A stretch of 64,000 nucleotides of DNA, from NCBI GenBank assembly GCA_023249105.1, contig JAHFDG010000011.1, positions 62,001-126,000 on the forward strand. Reading direction: 5' to 3'. Source of the stretch: Candidatus Methanoperedens sp. GTDB lineage: Archaea > Halobacteriota > Methanosarcinia > Methanosarcinales > Methanoperedenaceae. The first letter of the stretch is position 1. Each line of letters starts with the position of its first letter. This document shows, piece after piece, positions 40,772 through 42,653 of this stretch. Position numbers and translations under genes: made by a program. Under the pieces are notes generated by a model that ran no database searches, was not told where the DNA came from, and worked only from the letters and a program-made list of their open reading frames with translations.

Positions 40772-41632
40772 ATGAATCTCGTACCGAGCAAGTTTGAAGG
40801 ATACGGCGAAATAATCGCTGCCTCTATACTGTGGAGTCTTGCAGGAATACTTGGAAAAATGATGATCGGCATGTCAGCACAGAGCATTATTTTTTACAGG
40901 CTCGCGTTTGCATCGTTAATCTTTTTTATTGTTCTTTTGATTTCAGGTAACCTGAATAAAATCAGGCTAAAAGATAAAAAAATATACCTTTTGTTATTCA
41001 GTATAATGCAGGCGATGACCATGTTAACTTATTTCATAGCCATATTGAAAGCCTCGGTTTCGGTTGCCGTATTATTGCTATACACAGCGCCTGTGTATGT
41101 GACCCTGTTATCTCCATGGTTGTTAAAAGAACATTCCACAAAGAAAGGAATAATCGCACTCATCTTTTCAATCGTGGGTATCCTGCTCATAATTGACCCG
41201 GGAAAACTTGAATTCCAGGGGTATTCCATCGGGATAATTGCCGGGATTGTGTCAGGCATAACCTATGCTTTTCAGATAATAATCTCGAAATATATCAGCC
41301 AGACATACCGCGGATACACCCAGGCGTTCTGGAGTTTCATAATCGCAGTCCTTATTCTCCTTCCTGTAGGGCTTGCGCCTGTAAATGTGGTTTCAGAAAA
41401 CATGATTTATCTTATCCTGCTTGCGATATTCCCGACCATATTTGCAGTATCTCTTTATTTTAACGGATTAAACAAAGTAAAGGCACAAAGCGCCAGCATC
41501 CTCGGGTTAATTGAACCTGTGAGTGCTGTTATTTTAGCCGTTATCATCCTGAAAGAAGACATTTCAAACATGGAATTATTCGGCGGCGCGCTTATATTGA
41601 TAGGAGCCGCAATAGTTACAAGGGAAAAATGA
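40772..41632 (+). CDS. EamA/DMT family transporter
   Basis: A 286-residue protein with ten membrane segments in two repeated EamA halves (SILWSLAGILGKMMIG and GIVSGITYAFQIIISKYISQ begin the halves). The end SASILGLIEPVSAVILAVI is characteristic of drug/metabolite transporters. Substrate unknown. The next 180 bases hold the hairpin array before map. Confidence 0.9.
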   Translation: MNLVPSKFEGYGEIIAASILWSLAGILGKMMIGMSAQSIIFYRLAFASLIFFIVLLISGNLNKIRLKDKKIYLLLFSIMQAMTMLTYFIAILKASVSVAVLLLYTAPVYVTLLSPWLLKEHSTKKGIIALIFSIVGILLIIDPGKLEFQGYSIGIIAGIVSGITYAFQIIISKYISQTYRGYTQAFWSFIIAVLILLPVGLAPVNVVSENMIYLILLAIFPTIFAVSLYFNGLNKVKAQSASILGLIEPVSAVILAVIILKEDISNMELFGGALILIGAAIVTREK

Positions 41633-41813
41633 AAAACTTTAAGAAAGTTTTATCAAAAGAAGGGGTATGCTGCGCATACCCCAACACGCCCTCCCGAAAA
41701 CCTTTGGGAAAGCTTTACCAAACGAGGGGTATGCTGCGCATACCCCAACACTGCGTAAACCGAAGTTTCGGTTTAGGCGTGACTCGGGACCGCATAAAGC
41801 GAGGTGTCGCTTT
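41633..41813. repeat. Tandem hairpin array between EamA gene and map
   Basis: A 57-bp unit occurs twice with 64-bp spacing: about 41631-41687 and 41695-41751. Its right half (AGGGGTATGCTGCGCATACC onward, through CCAACAC) is identical in both copies and forms a perfect 9-pair stem GGGGTATGC/GCATACCCC with loop TGC (arms 41662-41670/41674-41682 and 41726-41734/41738-41746). The left half of copy 1 forms AAAACTTT-AAG-AAAGTTTT (41633-41651). A further hairpin is AAACCGA/TCGGTTT (41757-41763/41768-41774). Reading frames that cross it look accidental. Confidence 0.85.
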
Positions 41814-41816
41814 ATG
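41793..41816 (+). promoter_or_regulatory. Perfect hairpin enclosing the map start codon
   Basis: CATAAAGCGA and TCGCTTTATG form a 10-pair perfect stem with the four-base loop GGTG. The last three bases of the right arm are the ATG of map, so the start codon would be base-paired in the mRNA. No clear Shine-Dalgarno lies outside the stem; the loop GGTG is the only SD-like word. Confidence 0.65.
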
Positions 41817-42653
41817 AACGATACTATTCACGAATATTATCTGGAAGCAGGGAAAATCGCGGCAGAAGTCCGGGAAGAATCACTGGGCAAAATAAAAGAA
41901 GGAACTCCGCTCCTTGAAATTGCACAATATGTTGAAAACAAAATAGAAGACCTCGGGGGAGTTCCGGCATTCCCCTGCAATATTTCAATAAATGAGGTTG
42001 CATCCCATTATACCCCGCAGGACAATGTACCGTATTTTAAGAAAAGCGACGTCGTCAAGCTGGATATCGGGGTACATATAGAAGGATATATTGCAGATAC
42101 CGCTGCCACAGTAGAGGTGGGGACAAATAATCACCGGAAATTAATAAAGACCTGCGAAGAAGCGCTTGAAAAAGCTATTGCATCGGTCAAGGACGGTATC
42201 CAGACAAACAATATAGGCAGGATAATCGAGGAAACTATTAAAAAAAATGGTTTCAATCCAATCAAGGATTTGACAGGGCACAGCCTTGAGAGATACAGAT
42301 TGCATGCGGGTACTACGATTCCAAATTATAAGAGTTTTTTTGGCAATAAGATAAAAAAAGATATGGTTTTTGCGATTGAGCCTTTTGCAACATATGGCAG
42401 GGGTAAAATAAAAGACGGGAAACCTTATATTTTTGCAATAAATGACAGGTGCAAAGGAGAGATTGCGCAGGAAATCAGGGGGAGATTCGGTTCGCTGCCT
42501 TTCACTCCCAGATGGATTCCCGGAATAACGGGCAAAGAACTGAAGGGCGCAAGGGAATATTTTGAATTGATTGAAGAAAACGGAAATATTGTTGCCCAGT
42601 CAGAACATACGGTGATTGTCGCTGAAGAGGGTTGTGAAGTAATAACAAGATGA
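41814..42653 (+). CDS. map: Methionine aminopeptidase, type II
   Basis: Removes N-terminal methionine. The 279-residue protein has the metal ligands in DIGVHIEGYIADTA (two Asp), GHSLERYRLHAG (His), FAIEPFAT (Glu) and QSEHTVIV (Glu), plus the type II insertion. I start it at ATG 41814 (MNDTIHEYYLEAG), which fits the family. The open frame continues 49 codons upstream through the hairpin array, which I consider non-coding. Confidence 0.93.
   Translation: MNDTIHEYYLEAGKIAAEVREESLGKIKEGTPLLEIAQYVENKIEDLGGVPAFPCNISINEVASHYTPQDNVPYFKKSDVVKLDIGVHIEGYIADTAATVEVGTNNHRKLIKTCEEALEKAIASVKDGIQTNNIGRIIEETIKKNGFNPIKDLTGHSLERYRLHAGTTIPNYKSFFGNKIKKDMVFAIEPFATYGRGKIKDGKPYIFAINDRCKGEIAQEIRGRFGSLPFTPRWIPGITGKELKGAREYFELIEENGNIVAQSEHTVIVAEEGCEVITR

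Follow-up and report, generated by a model that had tools for sequence, protein, structure and literature searches.

Neisseria REP2 / CREN is a dispersed repeat that lies a few bases 5' of start codons and supplies leader signals; to our knowledge, it holds no mini-ORF overlapping the start codon. The Rickettsia palindromic elements are small dispersed palindromes of several types; they have an open frame and insert into protein genes without shifting the reading frame (PMC10969869). REP/REPIN sequences and the GTAG- or CGTC-tagged palindromes are short dispersed hairpins, often paired or clustered and sometimes located in genes; in the consulted sections of their description, the GTAG repeats accompany RAYT transposases and the CGTC repeats have no known transposase (PMC3733652). 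In cyanobacteria, the very small mobile repeat SDR5 is described, through a citation in a later paper, as inserting precisely within the repeated sequence HIP1 (cited in PMC4390886). For translational coupling in the archaeon Haloferax, reinitiation was found to be roughly halved at a stop-start spacing of 13-14 nt and nearly gone at 22-23 nt (PMC10666635), and a Shine-Dalgarno motif aids it to a variable degree (PMC6728339).

Here, we describe a mobile hairpin family of Candidatus Methanoperedens that occupies gene start codons, including those of essential genes, probably without silencing them. The focal copy lies between eamA and map within the window, the whole 64-kb stretch of DNA that was analysed, and we assign a probability of roughly 0.7 to its being a mobile modular palindrome placed at start codons, with the affected genes kept expressed by translational coupling. 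Comparison with relatives shows that the element lies at a start-codon ATGA, with ATGA on both sides.

A preceding sequence-only reading of the focal locus had reported a hairpin repeat with a 64-nt period and identical right halves, and this repeat is real: two 55-nt copies (41633-41687 and 41697-41751) lie 64 nt apart and are 78% alike, with identical right halves (GGGGTATGCTGCGCATACCCCAACAC, containing a 9-pair hairpin) and differing left halves. RNA folding of 41629-41830 yielded -81.3 kcal/mol (z = -7.5 versus shuffles), single-stranded DNA folding of the same region yielded z = -8.4, and the focal palindrome was absent from shuffled windows and is thus not expected by chance. The two copies do not, however, form the simple tandem repeat that had been proposed. 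The module order is P1-P2, P8 and P6, with a 78-nt P1-P2-P3 unit interrupting P8 (Table 1), and the second 55-nt copy is part of this nested unit. As P8 is unbroken in other copies (L186, L193, L209), we dismissed an origin by tandem duplication and favour a nested insertion, the apparent period of 64 nt resulting from an outer plus a nested unit. The earlier statement that nothing coding explains the region has to be abandoned as well, because the whole element is an open frame; this frame, the stop/start overlaps at both of its ends (at 41629-41632 with eamA and at 41814-41817 with map) and the ATGA duplication had not been noticed before.

Table 1. Features of the element between eamA and map, in window coordinates.
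Feature	Position	Strand	Basis
eamA transporter gene; stop TGA (41630-41632) inside left ATGA	40772-41632	+	ORF list; Pfam EamA
Left ATGA: duplicated target, eamA stop and mini-ORF start codon	41629-41632	+	sequence; empty sites in relatives
Mini-ORF, 62 codons (MKNFKKVLSKEGVCC...RIKRGVAL), spanning the element from end to end, with a TGA stop that overlaps the ATG of map	41629-41817	+	ORF list
Outer P1 hairpin (AAAACTTT..AAAGTTTT) with TATCAAA tail	41633-41657	+	folding, module map, covariation
Outer P2 hairpin GGGGTATGC-TGC-GCATACCCC	41662-41682	+	repeat search, module map
P8 left half (GCCCTCCCGA), cut by nested unit	41688-41697	+	module map
Nested P1-P2-P3 unit, 78 nt, in frame with mini-ORF	41698-41775	+	module map
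P1 inside nested unit	41698-41722	+	module map
P2 inside nested unit	41726-41746	+	module map
P3 inside nested unit	41757-41774	+	module map
P8 right half (GGCGTGACTCGGG)	41776-41788	+	module map
Terminal hairpin P6 CATAAAGCGAGGTGTCGCTTTATG, pairing with the map ATG	41793-41816	+	module map, covariation, folding
GAGGTG in focal P6, 7 nt 5' of the map ATG	41801-41806	+	
Right ATGA: map start codon overlapping mini-ORF stop	41814-41817	+	sequence; empty sites in relatives
map (Peptidase_M24, methionine aminopeptidase type), gene behind the element	41814-42653	+	Pfam

Searches of the host assembly (Candidatus Methanoperedens, 3.28 Mb, 134 contigs) returned 19 forward matches to the P2 hairpin pattern versus 0 for the reversed control, 54 matches to the P1 pattern alone, and 55 matches to a P1-P2-P3 covariance model at E ~1e-3 or better. 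Mapping of the modules in 40 stretches around host-genome matches revealed a basic unit of ~76 bp composed of P1, a variable middle hairpin and a terminal P6. The commonest form combines P1 and P6 (CATAAAG....CTTTATG) with P2, P4 or other stems in the middle position, while longer forms gain P5, P7, P8 or entire nested P1-P2-P3 units. A model of the 84-nt form matched 20 of the 31 Methanoperedens genomes and none of the 155 other genomes of the order, two other genera of the family included; a 42-base family signature occurred only in Methanoperedens / Methanoperedenaceae records and one 'uncultured archaeon' assembly. The element was absent from the viral contig collection and the plasmid collection searched. 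With ~55 genome matches beside unrelated genes, empty sites in relatives and no match outside the genus, the mobile palindrome family suggested in the sequence-only reading is confirmed, whereas the same dispersal near unrelated genes refutes a role specific to map, and the notion of a processing array gained no support. The proposed structured leader survives only in a general sense, since most P6-ended copies, placed exactly at a start codon, become the leader of the next gene.

Covariance analysis, which had also been suggested, was carried out on 23 distinct copies of 84 nt and revealed three strongly covarying helices. Their 27 pairs were 98.4% paired compared to 86.8% in shuffles, with 63 two-sided changes versus 22 expected and at most 23 in slid versions. 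The middle hairpin is the most variable part (GTATGC/GCATAC, GATAT/ATATC, GTGTC/GACAC, GACGT/ACGTC). The peptide encoded by P1 varies together with the P1 hairpin, and hence conservation seems to act on the fold and not on the peptide. The P6 stem takes in the ATG of the following gene, with -13.4 and -14.8 kcal/mol for the two P6 types, of which one carries GAGGTG 7 nt 5' of this ATG and the second only a weak GGGG. Rfam yielded no match above the gathering score (best 20.8 bits versus 60).

In most P6-ended copies, ATGA ends the left flank and occurs again directly after P6, in the orientation of the gene. In 20 of the 22 P6-ATGA copies of the host genome, an ORF with 95 codons or more begins at the right ATG, one of the remaining two begins a short ferredoxin-like frame, and in G022, G041 and G009 the same holds for 31 of 39 copies, a count that leaves out three inner members of double insertions. 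The genes behind the elements include those for ribosomal protein uL14, DapA and Rpp14 (Pfam). Under similar criteria, 33 of the 131 non-coding ATGA sites in the window are start-like and the remaining 98 are not; compared with this control, in which gene calls are rough, the P6-ATGA copies are enriched at start codons (Fisher p = 5e-9). Of 52 copies, 20 have a Shine-Dalgarno-like 4-mer within the 16 nt 5' of the left ATGA, compared to 12% of random 16-mers.

Comparison of 13 sites (map, uL14, LeuB, DapB, Rpp14 and others) revealed that most relatives have the same start codon without an insert. For the 12 genes other than map, the element was found in one species and the start codon was uninterrupted in most relatives examined, the comparison being less exact at a few genes whose start is shifted by about a codon in distant relatives. 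At uL14, for example, the empty site gaggtggcaaa[ATGA]aaggg corresponds to the filled site gaggtggcaaa[ATGA]AAAACTTT..(80)..CTTT[ATGA]aagg. The element thus exhibits a target-site duplication, a feature of MITEs, with ATGA at the 13 compared start-codon sites and TCAA at moeA. Of 31 genomes, 29 have an orthologue of map, and the remaining two gave only a weaker paralogue-like or a partial match. In 23 of 28 relatives, eamA leads directly into the map ATG, with stop and start often overlapping as ATGA; G005 has some other sequence 5' of map, and the element is located there in the host genome and four relatives (G015, G044, G009, G041). As G041 is placed apart from the other four carriers in the map protein tree, the map start codon was struck, or the insert lost, more than once. 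Double elements that stem from a second insertion at the re-made ATGA were found at L267, L268 and L293.

Thirty-nine of 51 copies have a left-ATG frame that stays open as far as the right ATGA and ends in its TGA. Ahead of the last 24 nt, 52 copies contain 3 stops in this frame compared to 109 and 78 in the two alternative frames; 41 of the 52 have a net length of 2 mod 3, distributed over ~18 different lengths from 80 to 287 nt. As copies share modules, these stop counts and lengths are not independent; counted by distinct lengths, the 2 mod 3 excess amounts to 18 of 27 (p = 4e-4). At the map site, each of the five species carries a different mosaic (185, 287, 155, 182 and 254 nt), and every one of these stays open as far as the right TGA, giving mini-ORFs of 62, 96, 52, 61 and 85 codons. 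The exact overlap is broken in 12 of 51 copies, most of which stop 9 or 19 nt 5' of the ATG owing to stops that P6 holds in the remaining frames. Decay was evident in several orthologous copies. Copies located elsewhere than at start codons are also mostly open in the left-ATG frame, and the open frame, which like the fold is established from the copies themselves, may therefore be a property of the element rather than one that is kept at each site.

According to the spacing rule of Haloferax, 80-300 nt of DNA inserted into an ATGA overlap would uncouple the gene unless the frame of the insert ends in ATGA, which is the arrangement observed. Upon insertion at a start-codon ATGA, the original start codon begins the element-encoded and mostly stop-free frame, and the length of the element places the end of this frame in the TGA of the re-made ATGA, such that the stop of the mini-ORF overlaps the start of the gene in the 39 of 51 copies noted above. 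We propose that ribosomes translating the mini-ORF would melt P6 together with the ATG held in it, terminate at the mini-ORF stop and restart on the gene, and that insertions at essential genes would thereby be tolerated. Related units enter other copies and, in frame, other genes, giving rise to the mosaic at map. That the start codon is the natural target, where the element survives by taking it for its mini-ORF and handing ribosomes on via the ATGA overlap and a hairpin opened only by translation, has in our view an even chance of being correct. Splicing at the duplicated ATGA, by which the element would be taken out of the mRNA, was considered but set aside, as a spliced element would have no need to avoid stops in one frame.

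A mobile leader with its own ribosome-binding site, on which ribosomes initiate afresh at the GAGGTG of P6, with element ancestry yielding the open frame as a by-product, would agree with the P6 type that carries this motif 7 nt 5' of the ATG, and with off-start copies being mostly open in the same frame. We nevertheless regard it as unlikely, since the ATG is hidden within the P6 stem (about -13 to -15 kcal/mol), the second P6 type offers only the weak GGGG, and an exact TGA/ATG overlap over ~18 lengths is not predicted. If the element were instead a selfish palindrome with a simple ATGA/TCAA-type preference and no expression-preserving design, its start-codon copies would be the survivors of loss elsewhere. 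The TCAA sites in moeA and hisC and the use of other targets are in line with this, as is the consideration that an 80-nt insert would destroy coding ATGA sites, but non-coding, non-start ATGA sites, about three times as numerous as start sites in the window, are hardly occupied, and copies persist well at other intergenic targets, which renders this explanation improbable. The stable, covarying structure in gene leaders might also recall an immobile cis-regulatory RNA, a riboswitch-like leader common to a regulon. We consider this highly implausible, as the genes are unrelated and no Rfam family was recovered, five species have differing architectures at one orthologous site while most relatives are without the element, and copies are nested in one another and in frame within genes.

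Beyond start codons, the host moeA gene contains an in-frame 81-nt insert with TCAA duplication that is absent from 28 orthologues, and the Pfam domain MoeA_N is still recognised across it; such in-frame insertion inside a protein gene is a feature of the Rickettsia palindromic elements. A hisC-like gene (histidinol-phosphate aminotransferase-like; L208:2531-3706, G000 contig 26) contains an 87-nt antisense element that probably adds ~29 residues in frame near the N-terminus, and a Kae1-Bud32 fusion (L187:1891-3540, minus strand, G000 contig 27) has a P1-P2 element in the interdomain linker, apparently in frame. Judged from ORF and element sequence, hisC and kae1-bud32 probably carry in-frame inserts.

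The element, which may still be mobile at present, is apparently non-autonomous. Inversion between its ends (AAAACTTT... and ...CTTT) is weak at best, the loci inspected were without an autonomous partner, and none was seen at the P1-only loci L203 and L205 inspected for this purpose. A Y1 (IS200/IS605-type) transposase (PF01797) was rejected as partner, since it does not track the copies (copy-rich G015 lacks it, and it is common among genomes without copies), and since element modules were not found around the Y1 loci inspected. A reverse transcriptase (PF00078) was rejected as mover because it is missing in six of the seven copy-rich genomes (G000, G001, G009, G022, G041, G044), with only a fragment in G015.

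Like the Rickettsia palindromic elements, the Methanoperedens elements are small, dispersed and open-framed, and some are located in frame within genes. They differ in being archaeal, presumably of unrelated sequence, and in forming nested mosaics, and most P6-ended copies lie at start codons, with ATGA duplication and stop/start overlap, instead of inside the protein. With regard to the extragenic location of REP sequences, many copies are intergenic, but they are open-framed at start codons and some reside within genes. In contrast to the GTAG repeats with their transposases, copies are not tracked by Y1 transposases, and in having no known transposase they are like the CGTC repeats; start-codon location and mini-ORF are not among the features given for REP, GTAG or CGTC palindromes in the sections consulted. 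With the cyanobacterial SDR repeats (Elhai 2008), the element shares very small size and mobility. We know of no start-codon targeting by these repeats. Termination-reinitiation at ATGA overlaps involves the same stop/start overlap and a strict archaeal distance rule (PMC6728339, PMC10666635); elsewhere it joins host genes, whereas in Methanoperedens a mobile element appears to use it. A description of the element in Methanoperedens was not found in the open literature searched, which does not disprove that one exists elsewhere. The family extends the known mobile palindromic elements by members that reside, unusually, at start codons and whose open-frame design is well supported. If translational coupling indeed protects the genes, selfish DNA can enter essential genes at their start codons with function kept, even where the genome is rich in operons, and the same genes with and without a preceding mini-ORF in related species would constitute a natural experiment on archaeal translational coupling. 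The elements would also open a route to new small proteins, leaders and in-frame protein insertions, and caution would be called for with the annotated N-termini and small ORFs of Methanoperedens, which is an important methane oxidiser.

Several minor observations were made alongside. In four contigs of G015 (C51, C53, C109, C169), element matches of equal score lie no more than ~100 nt from the low-numbered end; assemblies therefore seem to break at such copies, and copy numbers are lower bounds. Among the 31 Methanoperedens genomes examined, PF00078 is common in many of the copy-poor ones and missing from six of the seven copy-rich ones. Many off-start copies (L200, L206, L213, L214, L217 and L220-L222) are embedded in a different short dispersed repeat, the ATCTGCGTTTATCCGCGG / ATCCGTGCAATCCGTGTTCT type, and are bordered by repeats of 6-8 nt. 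The copy at L198:6725-6830 (minus strand, G000 contig 70) lies between the inverted repeat arms GGGTTCATCAA ... TTGATGAACCC, and may thus have inserted at the centre of a palindrome.
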